Shown: positions 19,057 to 53,118 of the stretch, piece by piece
Layout: every line of letters starts with the position of its first letter
How positions within the stretch are numbered: the first letter of the stretch is position 1
Origin: Aureibaculum algae
Lineage (GTDB): Bacteria > Bacteroidota > Bacteroidia > Flavobacteriales > Flavobacteriaceae
Direction: 5' to 3'
Assembly: GCF_006065315.1 (NCBI RefSeq)
Contig: NZ_CP040749.1
Location: 2,742,501-2,806,500, forward strand
DNA length: 64,000 nucleotides
Program-made: the position numbers and the translations under genes
The notes under the pieces: generated by a model
The model's input: only the letters and a program-made list of their open reading frames with translations
What the model was told of the DNA's origin: nothing
Databases searched by the model: none

Positions 19057-20181
19057 ATGGAAAAATCAATAACCCTTAAACACCTATTAATACGAAAACA
19101 GCAATGTATTGGACTACAGTTTTATACTGATACAGTAGTACAAGCATTGATAAAAGAGTTGCCAAGCCCTAAGTGGAGCAAGGAGTTTAACATGGTCTAT
19201 ATCTTAAACACTAAACAGAACGTTAACCTTGTTTTTGAGAAATTTAAGGGTGTGGCTTGGATAAATGGTAATTATTTTTTTCAAAATAAAACGCTGAGAA
19301 ATGATAATGTAGATGTTGATTTAGACTGGTTCAAGAAGCGTGAAAAGAAAAAAGGCTATAGAAAATGCCCCGAAGAATACTTAAAAAAACTTGAACTTAA
19401 AAGATATGCCAACAATACGGTCAAGAATTATGTGTCATGTTTTGAGTCGTTTATAAACCATTATAAAGATTCGGATCTATTAGATTTAAATGAAAATGAC
19501 ATTAGAGACTATTTGCAAAAACTAATTAAGGAAAAGAAGTCAAACTCATCTATAAATCAGACGATCAACGCCATAAAATTTTATTATGAAGTTGTACTTG
19601 GCATGCCCAACAGATTCTATACTATTGAAAGACCAAGGAAAGAAGAAAAATTACCAAAAGTTCTATCAAAAGAAGATGTTTTGAGTGTAATTGAACAAAC
19701 CAACAACATAAAACATCGTTGCATCGTTAGCTTACTATACTCGGCAGGTCTTAGAAGAAGTGAATTGTTGAATTTGAAAGTGGAAAATATCGACAGTAAA
19801 AGAATGTTGATACGAATTGAAGGGGCAAAAGGCAACAAAGATAGATATACTTTGCTTTCAAAAACTTTTTTAAAAGACCTTAGGCTATATTATAGAGAAT
19901 GGAAACCCAAAATATATCTATTTGAAGGCCCTAAAGGAAATCAATATTCGGCAGAAAGTGTGCTCAAAATAGTAAAACGAGCAGCTAAAAAAAGTGGTGT
20001 CAAGATGAATGTTACCCCACATGTTTTAAGGCATTCTTTTGCAACCCATCTACTTGAAAACGGTACAGATTTAAGATATATCCAAGCCTTGCTTGGGCAT
20101 AAAAACCCAAAAACTACCGAAATTTATACACATGTGGCGACAAATGTTTTTTTACAAATAAAAAATCCTTTAGATTTGTAA
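19057..20181 (+). CDS. XerC/D-like tyrosine recombinase heading the cassette array
   Basis: 374 residues from the ATG at 19057 (an upstream TTG at 19036 is possible). An N-terminal extension of about 110 residues precedes the SAM-like domain (PEEYLKKLELKRYANNTVKNYVSCFESFI). The catalytic residues are intact: Arg in YSAGLRRSELL, Lys in GAKGNKDRYT, box II HVLRHSFATHLLENGTDLRYIQALLGHKNPKTTEIYTHV with His, Arg, His and Tyr, and the end IKNPLDL like the SPLD tail of IntI and related recombinases. The ~20-residue insertion that defines integron IntI between patches II and III is absent. It stands directly before the first cassette in the same orientation as the cassettes, so it is the best candidate to recombine the attC-like sites. 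Confidence 0.85.
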   Translation: MEKSITLKHLLIRKQQCIGLQFYTDTVVQALIKELPSPKWSKEFNMVYILNTKQNVNLVFEKFKGVAWINGNYFFQNKTLRNDNVDVDLDWFKKREKKKGYRKCPEEYLKKLELKRYANNTVKNYVSCFESFINHYKDSDLLDLNENDIRDYLQKLIKEKKSNSSINQTINAIKFYYEVVLGMPNRFYTIERPRKEEKLPKVLSKEDVLSVIEQTNNIKHRCIVSLLYSAGLRRSELLNLKVENIDSKRMLIRIEGAKGNKDRYTLLSKTFLKDLRLYYREWKPKIYLFEGPKGNQYSAESVLKIVKRAAKKSGVKMNVTPHVLRHSFATHLLENGTDLRYIQALLGHKNPKTTEIYTHVATNVFLQIKNPLDL

Positions 20182-20232
20182 GGATATATGGAGTATATAG
20201 GTAACGGTACTTATATCCCTTCGTTGGCAATA
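20182..20232. other. Putative primary recombination site (attI-like) and first cassette junction
   Basis: Starts at the recombinase stop codon. GGATATA (20182-20188) and TATATCC (20212-20218) flank a GTATATAGGTAACGGTAC stretch; then C|GTTGGCAATA begins the first cassette at 20223. GTTGGCAATA is the exact reverse complement of TATTGCCAAC at the far end of that cassette (20877-20886). Inferred to be the integration site next to the recombinase. Confidence 0.5.
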
Positions 20233-20258
20233 ATGCAAGAATAATAAATAATAAAAAT

Positions 20259-20855
20259 ATGAATGATTTAGGAGGCTCAATTTGGTCGGCTGCAGTATTA
20301 CTCTTTTTTTTAATGGATCCATTAGGTAATATACCTGTATTACTATCAGTTTTGAAGGGCATAAGCCCTAAACGTCAGCGATTTATTATTATTAGAGAGC
20401 TTTTAATCGCTCTGGTAATATTGATTATTTTCCTTTTTGGAGGGCAGAATCTTTTAAATTTTCTTCATTTACAACAAGAATCAGTTACGATCGCTGGAGG
20501 AATTATCTTATTAATAATAGGTCTTCGATTGATATTTCCTCGTCCAGAAGGTGTAATGGGAAAACAACCTGATGGAGAACCTTTTATAGTTCCGATTGCA
20601 ATACCTATGATTGCAGGTCCTTCAGTTTTAGCGATGCTAATTCTAATGACTAGTAATGAACCAGATCAATTGGGTAATTGGTTTTTCGCTCTTCTTATCG
20701 CCTGGTCACTATCTGCATTATTGTTGCTGACTGCCCCATTTCTTTATAAAATTCTTCGTGAGCGAGGGTTAAAAGCTATTGAACGCTTAATGGGTATGAT
20801 CTTAGTTATGATGGCAGTACAAATGTTAATAAATGGGATTAAAATTCTTTTCTAA
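20259..20855 (+). CDS. MarC-family integral membrane protein (cassette 1)
   Basis: 198 residues with six hydrophobic helices. The family signature is clear: FFLMDPLGNIPVLLSVLKG near the N-terminus, GGIILLIIGLRLIF, and PIAIPMIAGPSVLAMLI. MarC/YhgN proteins sit in the inner membrane; their transport substrate is not established despite the old name multiple antibiotic resistance. It is the first gene after the recombinase. An attC-like site follows 25 bases after the stop codon. Confidence 0.9.
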   Translation: MNDLGGSIWSAAVLLFFLMDPLGNIPVLLSVLKGISPKRQRFIIIRELLIALVILIIFLFGGQNLLNFLHLQQESVTIAGGIILLIIGLRLIFPRPEGVMGKQPDGEPFIVPIAIPMIAGPSVLAMLILMTSNEPDQLGNWFFALLIAWSLSALLLLTAPFLYKILRERGLKAIERLMGMILVMMAVQMLINGIKILF

Positions 20856-20876
20856 TATAATTTAATAAAGGCACAT

Positions 20877-21012
20877 ATTGCCAACACCGTGTATAATTAA
20901 TGGCTAGTTATCGTCTACCTACGAAAATTCTCGCGGATTTTCTATTCAGTTTTTATTTGCTAAATTAGGTTCTTAAACACGCCACTAATCATACACAAAA
21001 CCGTTGTGGTTA
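20877..21012. repeat. attC-like site 1 (intact)
   Basis: Left arm TATTGCCAACACCG then GTGTATAATTAATGGC; right arm GCCACTAATCATACAC then CCGTTGTGGTTA. The 16-bp inner stem pairs at 14 positions. Inside is a GAAAATTC-TCGC-GGATTTTC hairpin. This is the type member of the sites in the array. Confidence 0.75.
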
Positions 21013-21026
21013 ATTTGCCCAAACCT

Positions 21027-21710
21027 ATGAACAGAAAACTGATTTTAATATTTCTACTTACAATTGTCCAACTTTCTTGGGCTCAAGATTGTGATTTTGA
21101 AATACGAAATTTGTCGAATAATCTAAATGGGGAATCTGAACTTATTGATAAAGCGGAATATGATAAAGCTGTTAGAATTTCAGAAGAATTTATTGACTTT
21201 AAGCCAAGATCTGAAATTGAACTGACCAAAAAGTATCCTGAAATTTTCAAACTTAAAGATTCTTGTTACACATTTTTAGCAAACCCAAATATCGGAATTG
21301 GAATAAAAACACCTGAATTAAAAGCGTGTAAATATTTATTAAAAGAAAAAGGATATTCCAATTACGAATTTAAAGGAACTTATTGCGGAAATGCATTAAT
21401 TGAAATTACTGAATTTGAAGGTTGGGGATTTTTATCAGTTGACTTAAAAAACGGACTGACTTGTCGCACAATGGGAAAACCTTTGACTTCAAATGGAGAA
21501 ACGGCTATTTCACACTCAAACTATTATGGAGAAGAGGAAATCGCATTAACGGATTTAAAAACTAAAGAACAGTACGTTATTGGAATTGAAGGTTGGAGAA
21601 CAATAGAATCTAAAGTTTCAAAAAATAGTTACTATTTAAAACTTGAATCTGAATTTCAAACAGGTTGTGAAAAGGAAATTAAATATTTGAAAGTGGAAAT
21701 AAAAAACTAA
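21027..21710 (+). CDS. Secreted protein of unknown function (cassette 2)
   Basis: 227 residues from the ATG at 21027, which begins a clean signal peptide (MNRKLILIFLLTIVQLSWAQ); the in-frame GTG upstream lies inside the recombination site. The mature protein has four Cys residues (CDFE, DSCYTF, ACKYLL, TYCGNA and further TCRT, GCEKE), so disulfides in the periplasm or outside are likely. No family recognised. The attC-like site begins at the stop codon. Confidence 0.7.
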   Translation: MNRKLILIFLLTIVQLSWAQDCDFEIRNLSNNLNGESELIDKAEYDKAVRISEEFIDFKPRSEIELTKKYPEIFKLKDSCYTFLANPNIGIGIKTPELKACKYLLKEKGYSNYEFKGTYCGNALIEITEFEGWGFLSVDLKNGLTCRTMGKPLTSNGETAISHSNYYGEEEIALTDLKTKEQYVIGIEGWRTIESKVSKNSYYLKLESEFQTGCEKEIKYLKVEIKN

Positions 21711-22062
21711 CCACAACAAAGTACTGTGGTAAAAAACAAATAAAACTTCATTAATTTTTCACTAAAGTACTTTTATAATTTCCATAATATATTACCCCTG
21801 ATTTAGCAAAAGCCCGTTTTAACAACTTATTACATACTGCTATTAACGCTGAATTTTCACAGAGTACTTTGAGTACATTTACTGCCCAGATTTTTGATTT
21901 GCTTTATTGCCATTTTATGGCTACATTTGAAAGGCTGTCGCTAAATAAAACCCTACTCCAACCCAATTGAAGTGCAGTATACCTTAGCTATGTTATTACA
22001 AGAAAATACGATAATAATTATAACGGTAATAAACGTAATGTGTTTGTACAATTGTTGTGTGT
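21708..22062. repeat. attC-like site 2 (long type)
   Basis: Begins TAACCACAACAAAGTAC, ends GTACAATTGTTGTGTG. About 280 bp of the interior is shared, at roughly 85-90 % by eye, with the site at 22800-23184. No gene is supported inside. The left core is complementary to the start of cassette 2. Confidence 0.65.
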
Positions 22063-22184
22063 CATACCCGAAAACGACTAAAATTGAGGAATTGGCACAG
22101 ATGACGTAAAGATGACATAAAGATGACGCTACTTAAATATAAGATTCGATTTAGTTTTGTTCGAAATAATTAAATCTCGGAAAA

Positions 22185-22790
22185 ATGAAGAACAAAGAAT
22201 TAGCAAAAAGAGTAAGAGAATTAAGAAAAAGAAAAGGTTTATCTCAAGAGGAGTTGACTGAAGATTCTGGACTTAGTTTAAGAACAATCCAACGAATTGA
22301 AAACGGAGAAACCGAACCAACGGGCGATACTCTCAAAAGAATATCTAACGCATTGAATGTTAATCCAGATGAGTTAATTGATTGGACAATTAAAGAAGAT
22401 AGAGGTTATCTAAAAGCACTTAACTTATCTACTCTTACTTTTCTTTTCTTTCCTTTACTTGGAATTCTAGTCCCTTTAATTTTGTGGAATTCCAAAAAAG
22501 ACAAATTAAAAGATATCAATAAAATAGGAAAAGACATTATTAACTTTGAGATTTCTTGGACAATATTTTTTTTCCTTGGGTTTATATTAAATACAATTTA
22601 TATGGCAAGTAAGTGGCATACGGATGAATTTATTTCTGGAGGCAGTATAGCATCAAGTATGAAATTTAACTTTTTCTTTCTGATTTTTATGTATGCATTT
22701 AATTTTGCGTTTATAATTTTCAATACACTCTTAATTGGAAAAGGAAAAGATGTAAAATACTATCCAAAGATTAGATTCTTGAGAAATTAA
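22185..22790 (+). CDS. HTH regulator fused to a DUF4870-like membrane domain (cassette 3)
   Basis: 201 residues. Residues 1-65 are an XRE-type HTH (LAKRVRELRKRKGLSQEELTEDSGLSLRTIQRIENGETEPTGDTLKRI). The rest carries about four transmembrane helices with DUF4870-like features (LLGILVPLILWNSKKD, INFEISWTIFFF, YPKIRFL). Such proteins are membrane-tethered DNA-binding regulators of unknown signal, common in Bacteroidetes. The AT content and short isolated setting fit cassette cargo. Target genes are unknown. Confidence 0.85.
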   Translation: MKNKELAKRVRELRKRKGLSQEELTEDSGLSLRTIQRIENGETEPTGDTLKRISNALNVNPDELIDWTIKEDRGYLKALNLSTLTFLFFPLLGILVPLILWNSKKDKLKDINKIGKDIINFEISWTIFFFLGFILNTIYMASKWHTDEFISGGSIASSMKFNFFFLIFMYAFNFAFIIFNTLLIGKGKDVKYYPKIRFLRN

Positions 22791-22799
22791 AAAGTACGT

Positions 22800-23184
22800 C
22801 ACACAACAAAGAACTGAGCTAAAAAACAAACAATTTCTTCATTAAATAAACACACTATTATTCTAGGCTCAAAATACGATTAATAGGTGTTTTGAGCTTT
22901 TATTTTTCATATATTACCCTTAATTTAGCAATAGCCTGTTTTAACAACTTGTTTTATACTGCTATTCATGCTAAATTTTCACACCGTAGTTTGAGCACAT
23001 TTAAGGCCCAGATTTTTGATTTGCTTTATTGCCATTTTAATGCTACATTTGAAAGGCAGTCGCTAAATAAAACCCTACTCCAACCCAATTGAAGTGCAGT
23101 ATACCTTAGCTATGTTATTACAAGAAAAAGTATAATAAACATAACAGGGATAAACGTAATACGTTTATACAATAGTTGTGGGTA
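22800..23184. repeat. attC-like site 3 (long type)
   Basis: Begins CACACAACAAAGAACTGAG, ends ATACAATAGTTGTGGGTA. A 66-codon open frame at 22892-23092 lies wholly in this repeated interior and is not preserved in the sister site at 21708, so I do not call a gene. Confidence 0.65.
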
Positions 23185-23200
23185 ATACGAGAAAAACGAA

Positions 23201-23824
23201 ATGGCAGGAATAACAAGCGAACAAATCAGATTTTTAAAAGAACAAAATATTCATCCGAAATTTGTTTTTAACGCAGACGGACTTTCTAAATCTGAATATC
23301 GTGTGATTATGAAAGAACTGAATAAATTAGTTGCTTATAATGTTACACCTTGCCAAAAAGAGGGTCACACTTTACGAACCAGAAGTGGACATTGTTGTCA
23401 ATGTAATACAGCAACATTAGGATTTCAAAAAAGGAATGACTCTGGTGGAATAGTATATATTGCTGGAAGTTTAACCGGAGAACTTGTGAAAATCGGATTT
23501 TCAAAAGCGGTCGAAGTCAGAACCGAATCACTAAATCGGACTAAATATGCTGGATTTAATGACTGGAAAATACTTTACGCTCTAAAAAGTAAAAATGCTG
23601 GACGAATAGAAACTAAAGCGAATTCATTGCTACACGAATATGCTTTTTCGGTTGACTATGAACACGACGGACATTGGCAAGATTCGTATGAAACTTATCA
23701 TTGTGCATATTCCAAAGCAAAGGAATTTGTTGAAAAAGCCTTTAAGTCAGAAAATTATGAAATTGATATTGAGAGAAATAGTCCGACTGAAAAATATGAA
23801 TTTAGGAATTTAAAGAAATTATAA
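23201..23824 (+). CDS. GIY-YIG (T5orf172-like) nuclease-domain protein (cassette 4)
   Basis: 207 residues. An N-terminal Cys/His cluster (CQKEGHTLRTRSGHCCQCN, residues about 47-66) looks like a zinc-binding module. Residues about 85-185 match the T5orf172 form of the GIY-YIG nuclease fold: GGIVYIAGSLTGELVKIGFSK, R-T-x-S-L-N-R, and KNAGRIETKANSLLHEYAF with the conserved Glu/His region. It may be a DNA-cleaving or DNA-binding protein; phage defence or mobility roles are possible. ATG start follows the site by 16 bases. Confidence 0.75.
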   Translation: MAGITSEQIRFLKEQNIHPKFVFNADGLSKSEYRVIMKELNKLVAYNVTPCQKEGHTLRTRSGHCCQCNTATLGFQKRNDSGGIVYIAGSLTGELVKIGFSKAVEVRTESLNRTKYAGFNDWKILYALKSKNAGRIETKANSLLHEYAFSVDYEHDGHWQDSYETYHCAYSKAKEFVEKAFKSENYEIDIERNSPTEKYEFRNLKKL

Positions 23825-23851
23825 ACTGGAAAAGTACTACCCACAACACCG

Positions 23852-25607
23852 GTAATCGTTGCACAAGCACCAAAATAGACCATCTGGATTAATTGGGGAT
23901 TTATTTTTAGTAGTTTTAAGCGTGGCTATAATTTTTTCTGTCCCCTATTTCATCTTTTTTAAAAGGCTTAAAATGGCTTGATCTGCTCAATATATGCCAA
24001 AAACAGTGAGTTAAGTACAGCGCAAGTGATTTGGCATCACTTCTGACAACTTTACTTGTGAATTTTAGGTACTTTTTCAGGTTGTAGGCAATGGCGGAGA
24101 GATGCATCACCTTGTTGGCTTGCTCAATGCCAATGGTATTTATTTTACGTAAGCCCATGAATTGAGTTAGCGTTCCAAAGACAGGTTCAACAGTACTCTG
24201 TCGTTTTGATTTCATATAACGACCTTGGTTGCTGCTTACGCGATGGTTATTTCGTTCGTATTCTTCTCTGTAATAAGTTACCGAAAATTTCTTTTCTTGT
24301 GCTGTCTTACCTAAACATTGTTTTCTTATCGGACAGTCTCTACAAATTTTTGAGGAGATTCTATATTCCTTTTTCTTACTACCTGTTCTATAATCATTAA
24401 ACACTTTTTTAAAGGGAACGATATGACCCTCTGGACAGAGATAATGATCCTCTTGTTTGACATATTCAAAATCCTCAGGACCGCCTTTATACGTCCCGTG
24501 AGGTGGTATAAAACTTCGTAAACCTATTTTTTCCAAAAAAGCATAATTCTCTCCATCACTATAGCCTGTATCGGCCACTAGATTTTGCCATAAGATCCCT
24601 TGTTTGTTCAATCGTTTTTTTAATCGAGGTACAATGTCTTGTAAGTATTGGCTGTCTTTCTTATCTGCCTTATACGCTTTAATGTCAGTGATTACATGAT
24701 GTCCAGTGTCAACACTTAGCTGACTCATATAGTTCAGCTTGCGTGCCTTGCCTGGCTTTACACTAATTTTAGCATCCGGATCGGTGGGACTATAATGCGT
24801 TTTGTTTGAGGTGTATTTTGAGTTTTTATTGTTTGCACCCGTGCGTTGATCTTGATCTTTTGACCATTTTTTATTCCGACTTTTAATAGCAGACAATTCT
24901 TGCTTGGTGGCACTAATTTTTTTTTGAGCATCTGAAGCTTTATTCTCTTTGGCTTTTCGAATAGGCTTTTGTTTATCCATGCTACTGATATGGCGTAGCT
25001 TTTTTAAGTGGTCTTCTAATTCTTCTTCAGGCACTTTTAACTCCAAGGTATCCATCGAGGCATTTGCCTTTATTGGAGCAGAATCTATCGCTTGAGTATG
25101 GCCACTTACCATGCCTTTGTCAACACACATAATTAAAACACGCGTAAAGACTTCTTCAAAAACTTTTTCTGGATATAATTGACGCGTACGACTTATTGTG
25201 CTATGCCAGGGCAACTCTTCATCAATATCATAGCCTAAAAAATACAATATGTCCAAACGTAAACTACAATGGGCAATCAACTGTCGATCACTGATAATAT
25301 TCTCTAAATATCCCACCAAACACAACTTGAAAAACACGGTAGGATCTATGCTCTTTTGACCACTGTCTCCATAATAAGGACGTGTCAGTACATATAGAAA
25401 ATGTAGGTCTAATTCCCCATTTAATCGTCGATAAAAATTCTCCTTTGGAATCCGATCACTCATTCGGAATTGAGTGAATAATTTCTCTTGATACTCTTTT
25501 TTGCCTTGCATACCTCAAGATACAGAATATCAGTCTAATGACCAATAAATTCATGCGTTTTTTAGTTCATTTTATCCCTAATTATATATATCTTGTGCAA
25601 CAGGCAC
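23852..25607 (-). mobile_element. IS1182-family insertion sequence, copy 1
   Basis: 1756 bp. Ends GTAATCGTTGCACAAG and CTTGTGCAACAGGCAC pair as imperfect inverted repeats (GTTGCACAAG core). A 4-bp target duplication ACCG flanks it. The element is nearly identical to the copy at 33594-35349, including the full transposase; both lie at the same position in an attC-like site. Confidence 0.85.
23916..25511 (-). CDS. IS1182-family transposase (copy 1)
   Basis: 531 residues, full length. The N-terminal DUF772 region (LDLHFLYVLTRPYYGDSGQKSIDPTVFFKL) and DDE domain are visible: TQAIDSAPIKANAS, the second Asp in NLVADTGYSDGEN, and the Glu region QSTVEPVFGTLTQFMG. A four-Cys cluster (CRDCPIRKQC) lies before the last Glu, as is usual for the family. 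Identical in translation to the copy at 33658-35253, so both insertions are recent. Confidence 0.92.
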   Translation of the reverse strand: MQGKKEYQEKLFTQFRMSDRIPKENFYRRLNGELDLHFLYVLTRPYYGDSGQKSIDPTVFFKLCLVGYLENIISDRQLIAHCSLRLDILYFLGYDIDEELPWHSTISRTRQLYPEKVFEEVFTRVLIMCVDKGMVSGHTQAIDSAPIKANASMDTLELKVPEEELEDHLKKLRHISSMDKQKPIRKAKENKASDAQKKISATKQELSAIKSRNKKWSKDQDQRTGANNKNSKYTSNKTHYSPTDPDAKISVKPGKARKLNYMSQLSVDTGHHVITDIKAYKADKKDSQYLQDIVPRLKKRLNKQGILWQNLVADTGYSDGENYAFLEKIGLRSFIPPHGTYKGGPEDFEYVKQEDHYLCPEGHIVPFKKVFNDYRTGSKKKEYRISSKICRDCPIRKQCLGKTAQEKKFSVTYYREEYERNNHRVSSNQGRYMKSKRQSTVEPVFGTLTQFMGLRKINTIGIEQANKVMHLSAIAYNLKKYLKFTSKVVRSDAKSLALYLTHCFWHILSRSSHFKPFKKDEIGDRKNYSHA

Positions 25608-25748
25608 ACCGTGTATAATTAATTGCTTGGGTCTGTATGTACTCGGAAAATCCTTCGGATTTCCCTAACGTTCGGTTTCCTTTTACTAAATTAGTTGCTG
25701 AACCACGCAACTAACCATACACAAACCGTTGTGGCTAATTTGGTACGG

Positions 25749-27046
25749 TAAAGGGACATCCTTTACAAAGTTAAAGGGACATAGTTTACACTTTTAAGAT
25801 TCATAAATTACTTGAAAAAGTATTTATCATGGTCTGGAAAGCAAAAACTAAAATGGAACAAAAAGTAGAATTTATTCATGAATGGTTAACCGGGAAATAT
25901 ACCATTACAGAACTTTGTAGGTCATTTAATATATCTCGACCTACTGCTTACAAATTGATTTCTCGGTATGAAAAAATGGGACTATCGGGATTAATTGAGC
26001 AAAAAAGAGCCCCAATTAATCATCCCAACAGAACCAATCAAAAGGTTGAAAATTCAATCTTAAAATTAAAAAACAAACACATGCTTTGGGGTGCGAAGAA
26101 AATTCGGATTTTGTTGTTTAAAGAGTATGCTAATGAACTTATTCCAAGTGTGGTGACTGTTCACAACATCCTTTCTAAAAATGGCCTAGTTAAACCTCAA
26201 AAGCGAAGCAGAAGAGTCAAGCCAGTATTCCCCATTTTCGATCCTAAAAAGTGTAATGAAGTTTGGAGTGCAGACTATAAAGGAAAGTTTTTAATGGGCA
26301 ATAAAATTTACTGTCATCCACTTACTATAGCCGATTCTAAGAGTAGATTTTTGTTTACAGCAAAAGGGCATTATAAAGAGAACTTCATCTCTGTTAAGCA
26401 AGAGTTTACAAAGGTTTTTAGAAAGTATGGCATCCCTAAACAAATACATACAGACAATGGTAGTCCATTTGGATCTGTAGCTGCCATTCAAAGATATACA
26501 AGGTTATCTTATTGGTTTATTGAATTGGGAATTGACCCTGTTTATTCCGACCCAGCACGCCCAGACCAAAACGGACGACACGAGCGAATGCACCGTGATT
26601 TAAAGGCTGCTTGTGCCAAACCTTCAGCATTTGATCTCAAGGCACAACAACGTAGTTTAAATCGGTTTGTAAAAGAATATAATCACATTAGGCCTCATGA
26701 ATCTTTAGGAATGAAAACCCCTGCAGATTGCCATGATTTTTCCAATAGACCATACCCTGAAAAAATTCCAAAATATGATTATCATTCAACTATGAAAGTG
26801 ATGAAAGTATGTCAAAATGGAGCCATGCGGTGGAAGTCATATTATTGGGTATATTTAACTTCTGGACTTAAAGGGAAATATGTCGGTGCTCAAGATCAAG
26901 GAAATGGAATTTGGAGAGTATTTTATAGAGACGTATTTTTAGGTTATTTTAACGAAAAAAAAATAAGAGACAAACAAGTATCAATTAGACTAAGTCAGAA
27001 TCTAGTGTAAAGGATGTGACTTTAACTTTGTAAACTATCTGCCTTA
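25749..27046 (+). mobile_element. IS481-family insertion sequence
   Basis: About 1.3 kb. Ends are imperfect ~43-bp inverted repeats sharing TTTACAAAGTTAAAG (25772 region and complement near 27025). It sits 12 bases after the start of cassette 5, upstream of the cassette gene at 27072. Confidence 0.75.
25829..27010 (+). CDS. IS481-family transposase
   Basis: 393 residues. N-terminal HTH (KYTITELCRSFNISRPTAYKLISRYEKMGLSGLIEQ) and a DDE integrase core: EVWSADYKG (Asp), QIHTDNGSPF (Asp) and PDQNGRHERMHRDLK (Glu). C-terminal RPHESLGMKTPAD follows. Length and motifs fit an intact IS481-family enzyme. ATG at 25829 chosen; terminal repeats flank the gene. Confidence 0.9.
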   Translation: MVWKAKTKMEQKVEFIHEWLTGKYTITELCRSFNISRPTAYKLISRYEKMGLSGLIEQKRAPINHPNRTNQKVENSILKLKNKHMLWGAKKIRILLFKEYANELIPSVVTVHNILSKNGLVKPQKRSRRVKPVFPIFDPKKCNEVWSADYKGKFLMGNKIYCHPLTIADSKSRFLFTAKGHYKENFISVKQEFTKVFRKYGIPKQIHTDNGSPFGSVAAIQRYTRLSYWFIELGIDPVYSDPARPDQNGRHERMHRDLKAACAKPSAFDLKAQQRSLNRFVKEYNHIRPHESLGMKTPADCHDFSNRPYPEKIPKYDYHSTMKVMKVCQNGAMRWKSYYWVYLTSGLKGKYVGAQDQGNGIWRVFYRDVFLGYFNEKKIRDKQVSIRLSQNLV

Positions 27047-27071
27047 ACGAACATTTAACGAAACCCTGAAT

Positions 27072-27764
27072 ATGAAAGGAAAAATTGGAATTGTAATTAT
27101 TATTTTGTCTTTTCTAATTTCATTAAATCCTTATTGGCTGATTTTTGGAATACCTCTTTTTGTAATCGGAATTATAATATTATTACTTTCTCAAAAACCT
27201 ATTAAAACAAAATTAATTTGGATTTTAACGCCAATAATTCTTTGGTATCCATTTATGAATTTGTTTTTCTATTTAATGGGAACAATTGGAACAGCTACAG
27301 CTCAAAAACTTGATTTAATATTCCCTGAAAACTTTAAAGGAAAAGCAATTGTAATATCTGAAATGCCTTGTGGAGAAGAAATTGAAATTATTGATAACCG
27401 AGAACAATTGCGAATTCCAGAAAACGGAATTTTACTCTATAAAGGAAATTTAAAAAGCGGATATATAAATAATCGATATTTTAAAATTGACAAAAAAGGA
27501 AAAAAGACAGAAATACCAACTCGTGCGAATTATATGTACTTTGACGATTCAGAAAATAAACCTGACGAAAGTGTTGAAGGAATTTGGTTAAGTGGTGGTG
27601 GAACAAAATATAATCCAAATCCAAATGGCGGAATTAATTACTCATACAGAGAGTTTTTAATAAGTTCAAAAGATAGTTTGGAAAAATGGAATGATTTTAA
27701 GAGTTCTAGAAAATTAGAAAGAATAACAGATAGTTTAGTGGAAAAGTGTAAAAATAAAAACTAG
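27072..27764 (+). CDS. Membrane-anchored hypothetical protein (cassette 5)
   Basis: 230 residues. Two N-terminal transmembrane helices (IGIVIIILSFLISLNPYWLIFGIPLFVIGIIILLL as a hairpin, then LIWILTPIILWYPFMNLFFYLMG) are followed by a polar domain of about 150 residues with no known motif. It probably exposes that domain on one side of the inner membrane. The attC-like site starts at its stop codon, so it is the gene of cassette 5. Family not recognised. Confidence 0.65.
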   Translation: MKGKIGIVIIILSFLISLNPYWLIFGIPLFVIGIIILLLSQKPIKTKLIWILTPIILWYPFMNLFFYLMGTIGTATAQKLDLIFPENFKGKAIVISEMPCGEEIEIIDNREQLRIPENGILLYKGNLKSGYINNRYFKIDKKGKKTEIPTRANYMYFDDSENKPDESVEGIWLSGGGTKYNPNPNGGINYSYREFLISSKDSLEKWNDFKSSRKLERITDSLVEKCKNKN

Positions 27765-27849
27765 CCACAACACCGTATCCTATGTAAAGCACTTTCCCGA
27801 GTCTTAGGTTAAATATACAATATTTTTCTTTTTTTTAATTCATGATATT

Positions 27850-28090
27850 ATTTTTAGTGTTGAACTGTTGATTACGCTTTTTGCGTTATCAATAATTCAA
27901 TGCTAGCTTTATAAAACTCCGCATCCTATATGTGGTATCCGTCTTTAGCGAATCCACCAGCATCTCTATGATGATTTTGGCAAACAAGGCAACTTGCTAT
28001 AAATATGTGATAACTGTATTAGAGTTTCACCTACGGTGTTTTGTTGTCCTATCTTTTGTGCCAATTTTATAATGAGTTTTAAGCTTGTTT
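27850..28090 (-). ncRNA. Predicted bridge/seek RNA region of the IS1111-type element
   Basis: Located 3' of the transposase gene inside the element. It contains TACGGTGTT (28032-28040), the reverse complement of the target AACACCGTA at the left junction; TTGCTATAA (27994-28002), identical to the right junction 29218-29226; and ATCCTAT (27923-27929), as at the left end of the element. These are the features expected of target and donor loops. No expression evidence; the boundaries are approximate. Confidence 0.45.
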
Positions 28091-28101
28091 TATGTTTTTA
28101 T

Positions 28102-29157: not shown

Positions 29158-29388
29158 AATAATAAGTTTTTGAACCTTAAAGTTATTAACTAAACTTTGG
29201 ATACTGCTTTTACATGGTTGCTATAATTTATTGCTGGCTTCTTGCCTACTTACGAAAGTCCTCGCGGACTTTCTTGGTCGGTAATTATTTACTAAATTAG
29301 TTGCTGAAACCACGCAACAAACCATATACAAACACGTTGGCAACAAGCATGACCCGTCCTGAATATAGGCTACATAATTTTAAACATT

Positions 29389-29754
29389 ATGTATAAAAAT
29401 GACAAAGTAATTAGACGGTATTCAGAACCTTTTAAACTAAAAATTCTGGATGAACTTAGTAAAGGTAAGCACACAAAGAGCGAACTTTGTAAACTCTATT
29501 CTATTGCACCTACAACGGTCAATGAGTGGATTAAAAAGTATAATCGTAAAGACTTAATGAACACCAGAGTAAAAGTGGAAACAAAAGACGAAATATCTAG
29601 AATTAAAGCACTACAAAAAGAGAATGAAAAGCTTAAAAAGCTTCTACTTAAAAAGGATCTGGATGCTATGGTAGAAGAATCTTACCTTGAAGTAGCAGCT
29701 GAAAAACTAGGCTATAAAAATGTTCAGCAACTTAAAAAAAAACTCAATATCTAG
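29389..29754 (+). CDS. IS3-family transposase OrfA
   Basis: 121 residues. HTH segment (RYSEPFKLKILDELSKGKHTKSELCKLYSIAPTTVNEWIKKYNR) and a leucine-zipper region (IKALQKENEKLKKLLLKKDLDA), typical of OrfA. The gene ends in a run of nine A residues (29737-29746 area), where a -1 frameshift would join it to OrfB. Confidence 0.9.
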   Translation: MYKNDKVIRRYSEPFKLKILDELSKGKHTKSELCKLYSIAPTTVNEWIKKYNRKDLMNTRVKVETKDEISRIKALQKENEKLKKLLLKKDLDAMVEESYLEVAAEKLGYKNVQQLKKKLNI

Positions 29755-29756
29755 CA

Positions 29757-30611: not shown

Positions 30612-30658
30612 ATTAATTATTAACCTGTAGCCATATTTCAGGACTAGACAGCAAAAAA

Positions 30659-30859: not shown

Positions 30860-30933
30860 TCAAATGAGTGTTGAACAAATTCAGATAATGGAACATTATT
30901 GAAATGAAAATAAGCGAAATAGATATAAAGCCA

Positions 30934-42189: not shown

Positions 42190-42307
42190 CCGTTAGCACT
42201 AATTAAACTCAACTTTCCGAAAGCTGATAAAGTTTAACCATTATTTAACAACCGTTTTTTACATTACGCTATACATTTGAAAAAAACATTTTATCTAATT
42301 TTTTGAT

Positions 42308-43495: not shown

Positions 43496-43519
43496 ATAAT
43501 AACTAGTGCTAACACCGTT

Positions 43520-44963
43520 TCCTATGTAAAGCACTTTCCCGAGTCTTAGGTTAAATATACAATATTTTTCTTTTTTTTAATTCATGATATTATTTTTAGT
43601 GTTGAACTGTTGATTACGCTTTTTGCGTTATCAATAATTCAATGCTAGCTTTATAAAACTCCGCATCCTATATGTGGTATCCGTCTTTAGCGAATCCACC
43701 AGCATCTCTATGATGATTTTGGCAAACAAGGCAACTTGCTATAAATATGTGATAACTGTATTAGAGTTTCACCTACGGTGTTTTGTTGTCCTATCTTTTG
43801 TGCCAATTTTATAATGAGTTTTAAGCTTGTTTTATGTTTTTATTTAACTAACTACACCTACTTCATAAGGAATTTCAGTTCTAATTACTGCATGAATTCG
43901 ACTCAAGAGTTTCCTCGCTACTTTTACCAATATGCGTTTGACATCTTTACCTGAATGTGACCGATAATAGGCCTGCATAACTGGATCAAAACGCAACGCT
44001 TGCCAAGTAGCTTCTACCAAATAACTACGCATTAGCCGATTTGCTCTTGGGGTTAACCCTGAAGTTTTGAGATTATCTCCACTTTGGTGTACCCAGGGAA
44101 CCAATCCTACATAACTGGCTAATTGTTTGAAATTTTTAAAACGCCTTAAATCACCCAATTCACATAATAATCCACAAGCTACTATGCCTCCTACTCCCGG
44201 AACTGATCGTAATAAATAATAATCTTTCTTATAATGCTTACGACAATAGGCAAGTAATTTTGTACTCACATCTCGCTTTTGCTTATCTATATATTCATAG
44301 GTAATAAGACGTGTCTCAAAACAATAATCCATTGTAGGATATTCAAAAGTCAAATTTCTTAACCAATCTCTAAAATTATGAGACCAATGACTATTGTCAA
44401 ATGGCTTTGGAATTTCAATCCCCAAATACAACAATTGCATCTTTATTTGAGTCTTTATTTTTCGATGTTCTTTAACCAGCTCATTTCTTCGACGAAACAA
44501 ACATCTTAACTGCTCTCGTTCTATTGAAGGAACATGAATTCCTTTGAGTCGGCCATCCTTTAATTCTTTACATAACATACGTGCATCGATCTTGTCGGTC
44601 TTTTGAAACTGGGCCTTGGCTGGACGATGAACATCTGCAGGGTTAACAACCTTTGCATGCCATCCAAATGAAATAAAATGTCGATAATGACTAAAGCCAC
44701 AACAACCCGATTCATAACAGCAATAAACAGTATATCCCTTAAAATGCCTATCCACATACTTTTTTAAACTAAATGCATCTGGTGGAATAGTTAACGATGA
44801 TCCATCAAAAAGATCCGTTGCAGTACGAATTTTCCAACTTCGCTTGTGTACGTCAATTCCAATAAATAACTTTGATCTAGTAGTATCCTTTGTTTTCATA
44901 ATAATAAGTTTTTGAACCTTAAAGTTATTAACTAAACTTTGGATACTGCTTTTACATGGTTGC
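43520..44963 (-). mobile_element. IS1111-group IS110-family element, copy 2
   Basis: 1444 bp, same ends and position within an attC-like site as the copy at 27778. The guide-like TACGGTGTT lies at 43774-43782. The gene-free stretch 43520-43843 is its 3' non-coding end. Confidence 0.9.
43844..44899 (-). CDS. IS110-family (IS1111 group) transposase, copy 2
   Basis: 351 residues, same translation as the copy at 28102-29157, with the DEDD and serine-containing transposase-20 domains intact. Confidence 0.95.
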   Translation of the reverse strand: MKTKDTTRSKLFIGIDVHKRSWKIRTATDLFDGSSLTIPPDAFSLKKYVDRHFKGYTVYCCYESGCCGFSHYRHFISFGWHAKVVNPADVHRPAKAQFQKTDKIDARMLCKELKDGRLKGIHVPSIEREQLRCLFRRRNELVKEHRKIKTQIKMQLLYLGIEIPKPFDNSHWSHNFRDWLRNLTFEYPTMDYCFETRLITYEYIDKQKRDVSTKLLAYCRKHYKKDYYLLRSVPGVGGIVACGLLCELGDLRRFKNFKQLASYVGLVPWVHQSGDNLKTSGLTPRANRLMRSYLVEATWQALRFDPVMQAYYRSHSGKDVKRILVKVARKLLSRIHAVIRTEIPYEVGVVS

Positions 44964-45055
44964 TATAATTAATGGCTAGTTCTGGCTTGCTTACGAAAAT
45001 CCTCGTGGATTTTGAACTGCCCCCAAAAAGTTAGACACTATTTGAGGGTGTTTTT

Positions 45056-47713: not shown

Positions 47714-47903
47714 AACACAAAATTTTGGATAAACTCCGATTGAATATCGAGTTCATTATTATCAAAATTAATTATAAATTTGTCTAATCTTTTGGGTGCA
47801 GTCTATTTTCTATTCGGTTTTTATTTGCTAAATTAGGTGCTTAAACACGCCACTAATCATACACGTATTCCAAGGTCAAATCCTAATAATTTATAACTTA
47901 TTT

Positions 47904-49120: not shown

Positions 49121-49156
49121 GAAGACCGTTGTAAAACATTTACCACTAGCCATACT

Positions 49157-50314
49157 TTAACCTTTCTTATAGGTAAAAAGCATATAAACTAGAGAAGAAA
49201 ATGTTATTATAGCATAAAAATAGAATACAATAAAAACCTCTGAAATACCATTTTGATAATACCATCCAGAACCAAGAGCCCCTAGACCAATTCCAATTTC
49301 TAAAGCTATAAACATAGTAGCAATAGCTTTACCCTTTTCTTTCGGATTGCATAAATCGACCGTCCAAGCATTTAAAGTTGGAGCTAATATGCCTATGGCA
49401 ATCCCATAGATACAAGCTCCAACTACTAAACCATTTTTTGTTTGATAAAAACCTAGTATAAGAAAAGATATAGAAAGAAAAATTAATCCCATAATGATTA
49501 TTAATTGACGACTATATTTATCTGACAATTTTCCAGCAACAAATCTAATCAATAATGACGCTAGAGTAAAAATAATAAAAAATAGACCTTTATTCATTAT
49601 TCCTAAATAATTTGATAATAAAGGAATAAGTGTTAATACGATACCAAATGACAAATAGGAAATAAATGTAATTATTGCAGGATAAATAACTTTTACATCA
49701 ATAATATCATTCTTTTTTATTCTTAAAAAAGAGATTTGAAAGTTCCTTTTATCAACTAAAGTTTCTTTTAAATTTATAATACATAATATTGATAATAATG
49801 AAATAAATGACGAACAGTAAAACAAAAAATTATATGACTGATGTAGTTTTATAAAACTACCCAAAACAGGACCTAAAGCTAAACCTGAACTAAAAAAAAG
49901 ACTTTGTATTCCTAAAGCTTCTCCCCAACGATTTGAAGGTATAATATCCGTTAAAAAGGCTGCAAAAGCCGTTGGGCTAAAACCTGTTGAAAAGCCGTGT
50001 AAAAACCTTAAAAGTAAAAAACCATAAACTGTTGTTAAAATTGGATATAGAAAACCACATATAATACACACGATTATTCCAATTAACATTACAGGTTTTC
50101 TTCCAATAGTATCGGTTAATTTTCCACTAAAAGGTCTTGAAACACCAGCTGTAAGTGTAAATAATGCGATAATTAAACCTATATATTTTTTTCCTCCAAG
50201 GCTTTCTAAATAAGTTGGAAGTTCAGGAATTAACATATTATAGCTAGATGAAAACAGTAATGAACTCAAACATATAAGTCCAAAATCAAAAGTATAGATA
50301 GATTTATTTTTCAT
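49157..50314 (-). CDS. MFS transporter (cassette 12)
   Basis: 385 residues with 12 predicted transmembrane helices. MFS signatures: SGKLTDTIGRKPVMLIGI between helices 2 and 3 (motif A: G-x-L-x-D-x-x-G-R-K), RFLHGFSTGFSPTAFAAFLTDIIP, and GKLSDKYSRQLIIIMG in the second half. Drug or metabolite efflux is likely, but no substrate can be assigned. It runs against the array direction together with the HD gene five bases upstream (stop at 50320); they form a two-gene unit divergent from a Crp-like regulator. Confidence 0.88.
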   Translation of the reverse strand: MKNKSIYTFDFGLICLSSLLFSSSYNMLIPELPTYLESLGGKKYIGLIIALFTLTAGVSRPFSGKLTDTIGRKPVMLIGIIVCIICGFLYPILTTVYGFLLLRFLHGFSTGFSPTAFAAFLTDIIPSNRWGEALGIQSLFFSSGLALGPVLGSFIKLHQSYNFLFYCSSFISLLSILCIINLKETLVDKRNFQISFLRIKKNDIIDVKVIYPAIITFISYLSFGIVLTLIPLLSNYLGIMNKGLFFIIFTLASLLIRFVAGKLSDKYSRQLIIIMGLIFLSISFLILGFYQTKNGLVVGACIYGIAIGILAPTLNAWTVDLCNPKEKGKAIATMFIALEIGIGLGALGSGWYYQNGISEVFIVFYFYAIITFSSLVYMLFTYKKG

Positions 50315-50319
50315 ACGAA

Positions 50320-50895
50320 CTATCTATTATAAAGTGATTTAATTGTTTTCTCTACATATTCCCAAATAGTGCTGGAACCTAACTTAATCTTTTCTGTTTT
50401 TTTAATAACATTCTCATAAATTACATTAAACTCAAACCAAGTACCACCATTATTTGATTGATTTTGAAGTACAGGCTGAAACCTATCCATTGCTTTTGCA
50501 AATTTAGCTTCACTCGTTTCTCCTTCCTCGAATTCTTTCCAAATTGCAATTAAATCCTCTGCTTGGTTCTTTGGTAAAATTCCAAAAATACGTTTTGCAG
50601 CAACAAATTCTTCAGCTGTATTATCGTGATTTTTTTTTGTGTCAAATAAAAAAGTATCACCAGCATCTATTTCAACAATATCGTGAATCAATAACATTTT
50701 TAAAACCTTTAAAACATCAATATTTTCATTGGAATGTTCGTCCAAAATAATTGCCATTAATGATAAATGCCAACTATGTTCTGCATCATTTTCTCTCCTG
50801 TTACTATTAAATAACCTCGTTTTACGCTCAATATATTTTAGTTTATCTACTTCTTTGATAAACTCAATTTGCTTTTTTAATCGACTTGATTCCAT
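50320..50895 (-). CDS. HD-domain phosphohydrolase (HDDC2/YfbR-like)
   Basis: 191 residues from the ATG at 50895; upstream codons overlap the divergent promoter region. HD motif residues: NDAEHSWHLSLMAIIL (His) and LLIHDIVEIDAGDTFLFD (His-Asp, second Asp), as in 5'-deoxynucleotidase/HDDC2 proteins that hydrolyse nucleoside monophosphates. Cytoplasmic. Cotranscribed with the MFS gene downstream. Confidence 0.85.
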   Translation of the reverse strand: MESSRLKKQIEFIKEVDKLKYIERKTRLFNSNRRENDAEHSWHLSLMAIILDEHSNENIDVLKVLKMLLIHDIVEIDAGDTFLFDTKKNHDNTAEEFVAAKRIFGILPKNQAEDLIAIWKEFEEGETSEAKFAKAMDRFQPVLQNQSNNGGTWFEFNVIYENVIKKTEKIKLGSSTIWEYVEKTIKSLYNR

Positions 50896-50929
50896 ATTTG
50901 TTAATCTTAAGACTACAAATAAAAAGTAA

Positions 50930-50937
50930 TACCTTTG
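50930..50937 (+). promoter_or_regulatory. Predicted -7 element of the Crp-like gene
   Basis: TACCTTTG (TAnnTTTG) lies 33 bases before the ATG at 50971, in the 75-bp divergent region. A -33 TTG at 19 bases is not evident. Confidence 0.4.
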
Positions 50938-50970
50938 ATTTATAAAGGACATTTGTCTCAACTGAAAAAA

Positions 50971-51525
50971 ATGATTAGAACAAATATTGAACTATTGGAA
51001 TATATTGAAGCATTTAGAAATTCAATTCATTATTTTATTGAAGAGGAAATTCAAAAGGAGCAAAAAATAATATACCAGAATAGAAATAGCTCTTTTGGGT
51101 ATATTATTAAAAATGGCATTGCAAAATGTTTTTTAACGGATGAGAATGGAAATGATTTTATTCAAGAATTTTTTAGTGAAGGAGAATTATTTGGAGAAAT
51201 TGAAATAATAAATAATACTAATAACTTTTGCACAGTTGAATCTATTTCAGAAATGACCGTTTATAAAATATCTAAAACCAACTTTCAATATCTTTTAGAA
51301 AATGACCAAAAATTTAATAATTTAATTATGAAATCATTTGCGAAAAAAATTCAATATAAAGCAGTAAGACATTCTTATAATCAACTGCATTCTATTAAAT
51401 CTAATCTTTTTAGATTGCAACAATCAACTTTAGATTTTATGGAAATTATTTCAAAAAATGATATCGCAAGCTATTTAGGAATTAGTTTAAGAAGTTTAAA
51501 TAGGATTTTAAAAGATAAGAGTTAA
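50971..51525 (+). CDS. Crp/Fnr-family regulator
   Basis: 184 residues from the ATG at 50971, preferred because the 12 upstream codons overlap the promoter element. Beta-roll sensor (KIIYQNRNSSFGYIIKNGIAKCFLTDENGNDFIQEFFSEGELFGEIEIINN) and HTH (ISKNDIASYLGISLRSLNRILKDKS). Divergent from the HD-MFS pair in the same cassette, so a local regulator is likely. Confidence 0.88.
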   Translation: MIRTNIELLEYIEAFRNSIHYFIEEEIQKEQKIIYQNRNSSFGYIIKNGIAKCFLTDENGNDFIQEFFSEGELFGEIEIINNTNNFCTVESISEMTVYKISKTNFQYLLENDQKFNNLIMKSFAKKIQYKAVRHSYNQLHSIKSNLFRLQQSTLDFMEIISKNDIASYLGISLRSLNRILKDKS

Positions 51526-51548
51526 CAAAAACGTTTTACAACACCATA

Positions 51549-52992
51549 TCCTATGTAAAGCACTTTCCCGAGTCTTAGGTTAAATATACAATATTTTTCT
51601 TTTTTTTAATTCATGATATTATTTTTAGTGTTGAACTGTTGATTACGCTTTTTGCGTTATCAATAATTCAATGCTAGCTTTATAAAACTCCGCATCCTAT
51701 ATGTGGTATCCGTCTTTAGCGAATCCACCAGCATCTCTATGATGATTTTGGCAAACAAGGCAACTTGCTATAAATATGTGATAACTGTATTAGAGTTTCA
51801 CCTACGGTGTTTTGTTGTCCTATCTTTTGTGCCAATTTTATAATGAGTTTTAAGCTTGTTTTATGTTTTTATTTAACTAACTACACCTACTTCATAAGGA
51901 ATTTCAGTTCTAATTACTGCATGAATTCGACTCAAGAGTTTCCTCGCTACTTTTACCAATATGCGTTTGACATCTTTACCTGAATGTGACCGATAATAGG
52001 CCTGCATAACTGGATCAAAACGCAACGCTTGCCAAGTAGCTTCTACCAAATAACTACGCATTAGCCGATTTGCTCTTGGGGTTAACCCTGAAGTTTTGAG
52101 ATTATCTCCACTTTGGTGTACCCAGGGAACCAATCCTACATAACTGGCTAATTGTTTGAAATTTTTAAAACGCCTTAAATCACCCAATTCACATAATAAT
52201 CCACAAGCTACTATGCCTCCTACTCCCGGAACTGATCGTAATAAATAATAATCTTTCTTATAATGCTTACGACAATAGGCACGTAATTTTGTACTCACAT
52301 CTCGCTTTTGCTTATCTATATATTCATAGGTAATAAGACGTGTCTCAAAACAATAATCCATTGTAGGATATTCAAAAGTCAAATTTCTTAACCAATCTCT
52401 AAAATTATGAGACCAATGACTATTGTCAAATGGCTTTGGAATTTCAATCCCCAAATACAACAATTGCATCTTTATTTGAGTCTTTATTTTTCGATGTTCT
52501 TTAACCAGCTCATTTCTTCGACGAAACAAACATCTTAACTGCTCTCGTTCTATTGAAGGAACATGAATTCCTTTGAGTCGGCCATCCTTTAATTCTTTAC
52601 ATAACATACGTGCATCGATCTTGTCGGTCTTTTGAAACTGGGCCTTGGCTGGACGATGAACATCTGCAGGGTTAACAACCTTTGCATGCCATCCAAATGA
52701 AATAAAATGTCGATAATGACTAAAGCCACAACAACCCGATTCATAACAGCAATAAACAGTATATCCCTTAAAATGCCTATCCACATACTTTTTTAAACTA
52801 AATGCATCTGGTGGAATAGTTAACGATGATCCATCAAAAAGATCCGTTGCAGTACGAATTTTCCAACTTCGCTTGTGTACGTCAATTCCAATAAATAACT
52901 TTGATCTAGTAGTATCCTTTGTTTTCATAATAATAAGTTTTTGAACCTTAAAGTTATTAACTAAACTTTGGATACTGCTTTTACATGGTTGC
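51549..52992 (-). mobile_element. IS1111-group IS110-family element, copy 3
   Basis: 1444 bp, same ends as copies 1 and 2. The left target reads ACACCATA instead of ACACCGTA. Guide-like TACGGTGTT at 51803-51811. The gene-free stretch 51549-51872 is its non-coding end. Confidence 0.9.
51873..52928 (-). CDS. IS110-family (IS1111 group) transposase, copy 3
   Basis: 351 residues. Identical to the copies at 28102 and 43844 except for one Leu-to-Arg change (STKLLAYCRK versus STKLRAYCRK). DEDD and serine motifs intact. Confidence 0.95.
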   Translation of the reverse strand: MKTKDTTRSKLFIGIDVHKRSWKIRTATDLFDGSSLTIPPDAFSLKKYVDRHFKGYTVYCCYESGCCGFSHYRHFISFGWHAKVVNPADVHRPAKAQFQKTDKIDARMLCKELKDGRLKGIHVPSIEREQLRCLFRRRNELVKEHRKIKTQIKMQLLYLGIEIPKPFDNSHWSHNFRDWLRNLTFEYPTMDYCFETRLITYEYIDKQKRDVSTKLRAYCRKHYKKDYYLLRSVPGVGGIVACGLLCELGDLRRFKNFKQLASYVGLVPWVHQSGDNLKTSGLTPRANRLMRSYLVEATWQALRFDPVMQAYYRSHSGKDVKRILVKVARKLLSRIHAVIRTEIPYEVGVVS

Positions 52993-53118
52993 TAAAATTA
53001 ATTGCTGGTTCTAGCCTACTTACGAAAGTCCTCGCGGACTTTCTATCTGTGATTTATTTGCTAACTTTAGTGCTTAAAACACGCAACTAATCTTATACAA
53101 ACACGTTAACTGCAATTA

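Follow-up and report, generated by a model that had tools for sequence, protein, structure and literature searches.

A probable integron-like gene-capture platform headed by a non-IntI tyrosine recombinase in Aureibaculum algae and its relatives

The 5.17-Mb chromosome of the flavobacterium Aureibaculum algae carries a gene-cassette array within the 64,000-nucleotide stretch analysed here (NZ_CP040749.1, positions 2,742,501 to 2,806,500; hereafter the window, numbered from its first letter). The array runs from 19057 to 53108 and consists of a tyrosine recombinase gene, an attI-like stretch, 12 cassettes whose ends are complementary and the beginning of a 13th, and it probably represents an integron-like platform for gene capture. 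The 12 cassettes were picked by hand from a computed list of end pairs that also held many chance pairs, and 8-10 of their first 10 bases match. An earlier note on this DNA had proposed that a recombinase other than IntI heads a cassette system here, a view borne out by a recombinase that fails the IntI cut-off and lacks the IntI insertion, by the cassette ends and by the sites between cassettes.

The integrase gene (19057..20181, plus strand), assigned from profile matches and alignment, encodes a XerA-like tyrosine recombinase that is extended by an extra part at its N terminus. Directly behind its stop lies the attI-like site (20182..20225, plus strand), delimited by comparison of copies and ending in ...TTATATCCCTTCGTT. 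All 12 cassettes lie on the plus strand and were delimited by end pairing, with their mixed cargo named from Pfam unless stated otherwise. Cassette 1 (20223..20885), with the ends GTTGGCAATA and TATTGCCAAC, encodes a MarC/YhgN-type membrane protein according to a profile match. It is followed by attC-like site 1 (20882..21006), found with a covariance model of the sites (model R1) at 104.8 bits and given on the minus strand, the bottom strand being the one modelled; its computed energies are -14.4 kcal/mol for the bottom and -9.1 kcal/mol for the top strand. Cassette 2 (21003..21717) encodes a protein with no Pfam match that appears by eye to be secreted, cassette 3 (22054..22807) carries HTH_3 and DUF4870, and cassette 4 (23175..23847) encodes a T5orf172 protein. 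The sites behind cassettes 2 and 3 (21714..22057 and 22804..23178, both plus strand) are two copies of a longer type, recognised from a repeat and end pairing. Behind cassette 4, an IS1182 element (transposase 23916-25511, minus strand) interrupts a site at 23844..25731 (plus strand, model R1), whose right part lies at 25605-25731. Cassette 5 (25728..27771) encodes a DUF6843 protein and has an rve-type transposase gene inside (25829-27010). An IS110 element (transposase 28102-29157, minus strand) interrupts the next site (27768..29339, plus strand, model R1), of which the right part lies at 29210-29339. Cassette 6 (29336..31468, end pairing) encodes two small proteins of 66 and 166 residues and contains an insertion at about 29349-30650, transposase-like by eye, that is missing from the second copy of this locus that the genome contains (copy 2).

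The site behind cassette 6 (31465..31588, minus strand, model R1) has a slightly more stable top strand. Cassette 7 (31585..33589) encodes an AraC-type regulator, an AHSA1-like protein and an ABM monooxygenase; the site behind it (33586..35464, plus strand, model R1; right part 35349-35464) is split by a second IS1182 copy, and an IS110-family element comes next (transposase 35503-36495, minus strand, profile match). Cassette 8 (36695..37576) encodes a GNAT/YoaP-like protein and cassette 9 (37755..38458) a Gp49/HI1420-type toxin-antitoxin pair, with sites at 37573..37758 and at 38455..38516, the latter only 62 bp long (both minus strand, model R1). Cassette 10 (38513..40417) encodes a cNMP-binding regulator, a polyketide-cyclase-like protein and DinB, and a weak inner site at 39688-39881 suggests that it may be a fusion. 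The site behind it (40414..40540, minus strand, model R1) is intact in copy 2, whereas in the window an IS1182-family element (transposase 40615-42123) interrupts it. Cassette 11 (42192..43513) encodes an esterase with TPR; an IS110 element interrupts its site (43510..45013, plus strand), which a further insertion truncates (genes 45056-46410, by eye transposase-like). After a right half-site at 47804..47864 (minus strand, model R1) comes an IS110-family element (transposase 47904-48896), recognised by its likeness to that at 35503-36495. Cassette 12 (49128..51542) encodes an MFS transporter and an HD_3 protein on the minus strand and a Crp-type regulator on the plus strand. Its site (51539..53108, plus strand, model R1; right part 52981-53108) is again split by an IS110 element, and cassette 13, which contains another insertion, starts at about 53105.

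The recombinase comprises 374 residues from an ATG at 19057 (381 from a TTG at 19036), has the Pfam domain PF00589 and a SAM-like domain, and is nearest among named recombinases to that of Aureibaculum luteum (98%). Its catalytic residues R233, K258, H322, R325, H348 and Y357, which the earlier note had found intact, are invariant across 38 aligned recombinases. The protein passes the NCBIfam model NF040815, named 'site-specific tyrosine recombinase/integron integrase'; it scores 198.6 bits against TIGR02249 (IntI), below the cut-off of 265, and with 206.3 bits against XerD (cut-off 329.6) and 200.8 bits against XerC (cut-off 335.15) it falls outside the XerC and XerD families. The 38 members of this alignment (A3) all match NF040815, and match the TIGR02249, XerC and XerD models more weakly. 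Among solved structures, the best relatives are XerA (231 and 224 bits), followed by IntI4 (207) and XerD (158). The IntI-specific insertion near patch III is absent, as the earlier note had stated, and IntI4 aligns in two stretches. The distance from the Box I arginine to the HxxR motif has a median of 91 residues in both groups of new integrases described below and in recombinases of rAID-like arrays, compared with 93-95 in XerA, 94-101 in XerC/D and a median of 133 in IntI, the last taken from 10 measured rows of which at least one gives a meaningless value. The N-terminal extra part (residues 1-105), in which W40, S41 and Y48 are well conserved, belongs to no known family: in the window protein it matches no Pfam family at E<=1 (other members of alignment A4 have weak, unplaced matches) and no solved structure (best E 1.6); a resemblance to fork-binding domains would be speculative.

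The attI-like site is identical in the window, in copy 2 and in A. luteum (L041), and all three sequences diverge right past its GTT. A similar motif lies behind the integrase stop in 70/75 loci of a first group and in 19/20 loci of a second, and an exact 9-mer partner occurs downstream in 47 and 12 of these loci, respectively; these counts lean upward, since the search on the 75 and 20 loci favoured candidates with a partner and then those with the longest inverted repeat. An inverted repeat of at least 6 bp is found in 54/75 attI candidates versus 65/797 control motifs, a contrast that is not strictly comparable because the control motifs were not chosen by the same preference. The exchange point can be seen in 34 locus pairs (42 loci), drawn from the 72 loci with an attI point and chosen because GTT and the 40 nt preceding it are at least 85% identical. 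Identity at the last two bases ahead of GTT is 0.97 each; at the three bases that follow it, it falls to 0.53, 0.32 and 0.29. As the search pattern demanded GTT and, at offset 10 or 11, an A, the values there (1.00 at GTT, 0.97 at offset 10) do not count as independent evidence.

In integrons, the two ends of one cassette pair in the circular form; in a linear array, the right core of a site therefore matches the left core of the next, and this is seen here. A cassette begins with GTTR, variable bases and an A, and this 5' end is the complement of the 3' end of the same cassette, just as in the circular cassettes of integrons. For the first cassette of each locus, the 10-mer has an exact reverse complement downstream in 22/37 named loci, compared with a mean of 0.3 and a maximum of 2 when the 10-mers were dealt among loci at random; with 8-mers the count is 29/37 versus 2.8 expected. 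These 37 loci come from a first attI search with a crude pattern, which set the point in 53/82 loci, several of them wrongly. In one locus from Salinimicrobium (L065), 16 links can be chained starting at attI, one of them with a mis-set start, versus 3 in the reversed sequence; the chain finder also yields spurious chains, with reversed-sequence controls reaching 5 in one locus. Selection for an 8-bp match, a purine following GTT and site motifs at either end yielded 132 distinct cassettes from 38 loci, 18 of them from a single locus. End positions outside the selection pair too: position 9 in 125 cassettes, 10 in 78, 12 in 112, 13 in 116 and 14 in 90. At position 11 the 5' end has A in 132/132 cassettes with C opposite in 106; on the top strand these two bases mismatch, and on the bottom strand their counterparts form a G.T wobble. 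The longest open reading frame lies on the plus strand in 109 cassettes and on the minus strand in 12 (10 cassettes longer than 2.5 kb were left out and 1 was not counted). The integron core consensus is RYYYAAC/GTTRRRY. The sites here depart from it: their near-constant part is YAAC/GTTR, followed by cassette-specific bases, and the cores (N)GCYAAC/GTTRGC and CACAAC/GTTGTG that the earlier note had put forward turn out to be variants of single cassettes.

A set of 71 diverse sites was aligned, and the bottom strands of 63 were used for folding and for building model R1. The consensus fold has 17 pairs, of which 10 are changed on both sides, and two pairs are G.U in 63/63 and 61/63 sites. With DNA energies, the bottom strand is predicted to be more stable in 104/109 sites (means -19.7 versus -16.9 kcal/mol); a motif filter had passed 113 of the 165 sites derived from chains, and these 109 remain after removal of four with a doubtful end, near copies being retained. 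It may thus be inferred that strand choice is built into the stem through the G.T/A.C pairs. Model R1 recovers 11 window sites (E<=0.018), all in one orientation and two of them near copies of training sites, and two weaker matches (E 0.12 and 0.34, the latter on the other strand). Rfam, searched with the window and L065 at the gathering threshold, has no family for the sites. The two long sites (~340-370 bp) share a 220-bp repeat, which recurs at 22909-23128 with 91% identity, and form a second site type that model R1 misses.

As the reading of the earlier note requires, cassette content varies from one copy of the locus to the other and among related strains, and it changes at GTT. Copy 2 (L009, L010) encodes an identical integrase protein (L009:9015-10160), and its cassettes before cassette 6 differ. 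A 6928-bp block of three cassettes with GTT at its start and end, bounded on one side by the GTT of the site at 31465..31588, is present in the window and missing from copy 2; the comparison of the two copies would fit either state, with the block in or out, as the older one. The second cassette of copy 2 (L009:11459-11890) is a gene for a Tdi1-type immunity protein of the type VI secretion system. Two further loci of this kind lie at 0.554 and 1.395 Mb of the same genome, which has 47 sites; by a hand count, 30 of these stand behind one of the four integrases in the correct orientation, up to 76 kb distant.

Insertion sequence (IS) elements sit in or beside many sites. Several of the dozen or so hairpin-separated units of the earlier note proved to be split sites, because much of the array consists of IS elements in or beside sites. 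The IS110 copies at ~27772-29215, 43514-44955 and 51543-52983 share one position in the attC-like site, and a second IS110-family type occupies another (~35461-36694 and 47865-49127), as if IS110-type elements targeted these sites. IS1111 elements are known to target attC. Profile matches back the types IS110, IS1182, rve and Mutator; other elements are presumably IS481-like, IS3-like or IS1111-like, or carry an arm-type integrase, labels given by eye.

Upstream of the integrase, on the minus strand, lies a divergent partner gene (18563..18958), identified by position and sequence, whose 131-residue product has two cysteine pairs, is zinc-ribbon-like by eye and matches no Pfam family at E<=0.01. 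A relative of it stands upstream on the opposite strand in 77/80 named loci, at a median of ~87 bp from the integrase, and it could regulate or assist the integrase. Matches at E<=1e-6 occur in 129/149 genomes of the family, many of them distant relatives with no positional tie to an integrase as listed. Further upstream lie another tyrosine recombinase gene (16737-18005) and, beyond it, two tRNA genes (16175-16261 and 16445-16519). Other tyrosine recombinase genes flank both copies of the locus, in the window at 16737-18005 and 54724-56001 and in copy 2 at L009:5017-6282 and L010:7641-8885. Given these flanking genes and, at the window copy, the tRNA genes, the platform may ride on a genomic island.

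The distribution of sites and recombinases was followed in 149 genomes of the window's family, taken as Flavobacteriaceae, and in 296 genomes of its phylum (30 of its own family), with stricter filters for sites and the best matches listed per genome. Sites are found in 134/149 family genomes and 95/296 phylum genomes, and recombinase relatives at E<=1e-60 in 100/296 phylum genomes. Recombinases at least 55% identical to that of the window head such loci in many genera, and a second group with ~34-48% identity has the same layout, with chains of up to 12 links. The two features tend to occur together: the phylum genomes divide into 60 with both, 40 with only the recombinase, 35 with only sites and 161 with neither (p = 6e-13); in the family sample (recombinase at E<=1e-50) the counts are 99, 2, 35 and 13 (p = 7e-6), and among the own-family genomes of the phylum sample they are 21, 1, 1 and 7. 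The tie between sites and recombinase that the earlier note had made a test of its reading is thus present as an association, and sites-only genomes (35/149 and 35/296) set a bound to it. The restriction to Flavobacteria proved too narrow, with relatives elsewhere in the phylum, in rAID-like arrays and in plasmids of Acinetobacter. IntI does not follow the sites (26 both, 59 IntI only, 69 sites only, 142 neither; p = 0.78). It scores above its cut-off in 84/296 phylum genomes; of these, one belongs to the class of the window and none to its family. With IntegronFinder 2.0, a single complete integron is reported for Bacteroidetes proper, in Salinibacter (PMC9024848).

Shortened relatives of the recombinase occur in Acinetobacter plasmids. 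On plasmid pHH1107, such a relative, with 56.5% identity over residues 144-374, precedes tet(X3), and an attI-like palindrome and core lie between the two (L196:3209-3420). In plasmids of Empedobacter, Myroides and Riemerella (three loci, L199, L200 and L201, ~3983-5190), tet(X2) has cassette ends with the same anatomy: it is preceded by GTTATGTGCC-A... and followed by ...GGCACATAAC, which match exactly over 10 bp, and three different 3' neighbours come after the next GTT. The accessible portions of three reports note a 'xerD' or 'tpnF' gene beside tet(X) and contain no mention of an integron (PMC7473080, PMC7722449, PMC11194056); two of them describe the role of this recombinase as unclear and ISCR2 as the mover (PMC7722449, PMC7473080). 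An independent hint from the bench comes from Riemerella, in which a gene with 27 bp of 5' and 140 bp of attC-like 3' flank is reported to have integrated in the absence of flanking homology (PMC13148043). Our literature search, thin on subscription journals, found no description of the present system, and absence from print is not claimed.

Taken together, these observations are best read as an integron-like gene-capture platform in which this recombinase acts as the integrase, with a probability of roughly 0.87. The sequence support comes from the attI point, the cassette ends, the conserved structure of the sites, the change of content at GTT and the association with the recombinase; the features tested appear integron-like except for the core consensus and, with reservations, do not place the system in the IntI family. 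We infer the role of the recombinase itself, a single bottom strand as its substrate, the exact bond that is cut and attI as the preferred point of entry. A circular cassette would fold on its bottom strand into the attC hairpin, in which the variable ends of one cassette pair over ~10 bp, then the G.T wobble (A.C mismatch on the top strand) and ~3 more pairs; the AAC/GTT cores and the inner stem would come next. The recombinase would exchange the folded cassette at the GTT core, so that new cassettes enter attI behind the integrase gene and others are deleted or moved between attC sites. As a guess, the N-terminal part might take over the recognition of the folded site.

Several points weigh against this reading. 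The case for cassette exchange comes from sequence comparison, and the strand bias is not universal, since 5/109 sites and the window site at 31465-31588 do not favour the bottom strand. In the own genome, 17/47 sites form small clusters and singletons that do not stand behind any of the four integrases. In the family sample, 35/149 genomes (e.g. G097, G071) have sites and no recombinase at E<=1e-50; these may be clusters without integrase or may have a more divergent integrase. In the phylum sample, 40/296 genomes have the recombinase with no site found, and 27 of the 35 with sites only are also free of IntI; the genome scans with the site model all fall within one phylum. For tet(X3), neither L196 nor L198 showed a partner end, and model R1 did not find the sites adjacent to tet(X2) with confidence, so those sites are of another type. 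Finally, the separation of the new integrases from IntI is weakly supported and not final.

This last point bears on a different explanation, namely that the array is a very divergent true integron whose recombinase derives from IntI and has lost the insertion. The earlier note had left open a separate or a very divergent system, and the larger tree now places the recombinase beside IntI. In a tree of 73 rows (12/30 fetched IntI loci, 15/18 fetched Xer loci, two E. coli Xer and two archaeal XerA among the intake; the other fetched loci gave no clean translation at the cut applied), the new group of 42 rows (37 integrases, 2 rAID-like and 3 viral-contig rows) has support 85/70 and is sister to IntI, whose 12 rows form one long monophyletic branch (100/100); their union is supported at 100/96, and XerC/D and both XerA rows fall outside it. 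The same union reaches 99/98 in a smaller tree of 59 rows, in which IntI stands among the new recombinases at a fork of unresolved order and a separate new-group branch appears in 39% of bootstrap trees. A loss of the insertion is conceivable, as it is not fully conserved in an integron-like subgroup, according to one study (PMC8138268). Yet the short Box I to HxxR spacing holds in the medians of both new groups and the rAID-like rows, the absence could be ancestral, and the larger tree keeps IntI as a branch of its own beside the new group. Descent from IntI is considered unlikely, and the recombinase lineage would rather be a sister to IntI that lacks the IntI-specific insertion.

Alternatively, the array might belong to the rAID systems (recombinase-associated acquired interbacterial defence) of gut Bacteroidales, in which a tyrosine recombinase, short co-oriented genes and conserved intergenic motifs form a similar layout and whose biogenesis is called an open question (PMC12247911). 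Plasmids of Bacteroides and Parabacteroides (L203, L204) carry homologues, ~50% identical, at the head of arrays with SMI1/KNR4, Tdi1 or Imm26 genes. These recombinases, called 'rAID-like' on the basis of their cargo, fall inside the new group in the tree, and one copy-2 cassette is itself a Tdi1-type immunity gene. Ross et al. are said to have noted in 2019 that rAID resembles integrons. The cargo of rAID consists of immunity genes, whereas that of the window is mixed and so does not answer to the description of an orphan-immunity array; nor does model R1 find a site in L203 or L204, two loci only. Membership of the window array in rAID thus seems quite improbable, and it is more likely that rAID is a specialised branch of this lineage.

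Another account would make the recombinase a bystander, with the housekeeping XerC/XerD or another enzyme moving the cassettes. The family genomes with sites alone and two Xer-type genes in the own genome could be cited for it, but the attI-like motif sits directly behind the recombinase gene in most loci, the sites associate with the recombinase, and clusters of attC sites without integrase (CALIN) also occur in ordinary integrons (PMC9024848). Such an account is judged very unlikely, and a housekeeping Xer as main mover was rejected because attI sits behind this recombinase gene. Hairpins at gene ends could of course terminate transcription and two locus copies could exchange by homology, but end pairing that is specific to each cassette and changes at one trinucleotide are unexpected under terminators, REP-like repeats or homologous exchange, which leaves this idea scarcely credible. 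A viral element was likewise rejected; the five relatives on viral contigs are partial and 36-48% identical.

If an integron-like platform of this kind is real, a hidden pool of cassettes would exist in a large and common group of bacteria, missed by searches based on IntI, which would explain the apparent absence of integrons from Flavobacteria and their relatives. Integrons would be able to function without the IntI-specific insertion. There would be a mechanism for how rAID arrays are assembled and for the recombinase found next to tet(X), and the homology-free gene uptake described in the Riemerella study (PMC13148043) would become explicable. More broadly, we lean towards the view that flavobacteria and their relatives harbour an ancient sister lineage of integrons, near-universal in the family, which never had the insertion and chooses its strand by the G.T wobble; integron function would then be older than IntI, rAID would be one branch of the lineage, and the lineage would be the source of tet(X) as a gene cassette.

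In comparison with known systems, the platform has in common with IntI integrons an integrase gene with an adjacent attI, mostly co-oriented cassettes, attC hairpins of mostly 60-130 bp with inverted cores, the pairing of cassette ends, a change of content at GTT and clusters without integrase. In a usual integron, the integrase is oriented opposite to the cassettes, whereas here it points along them and attI lies behind its stop codon. The recombinase lacks the insertion and has an extra N-terminal part, the core is YAAC/GTTR, the strand preference seems to reside in G.T/A.C pairs, and the divergent 131-residue neighbour is conserved. The archaeal XerA provides the nearest solved structures, yet it falls outside the clade of IntI and the new group, as do the bacterial XerC and XerD. 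Integrons are a known vehicle for the spread of antibiotic resistance, and the platform described here would be alike in build, with a different recombinase at its head.

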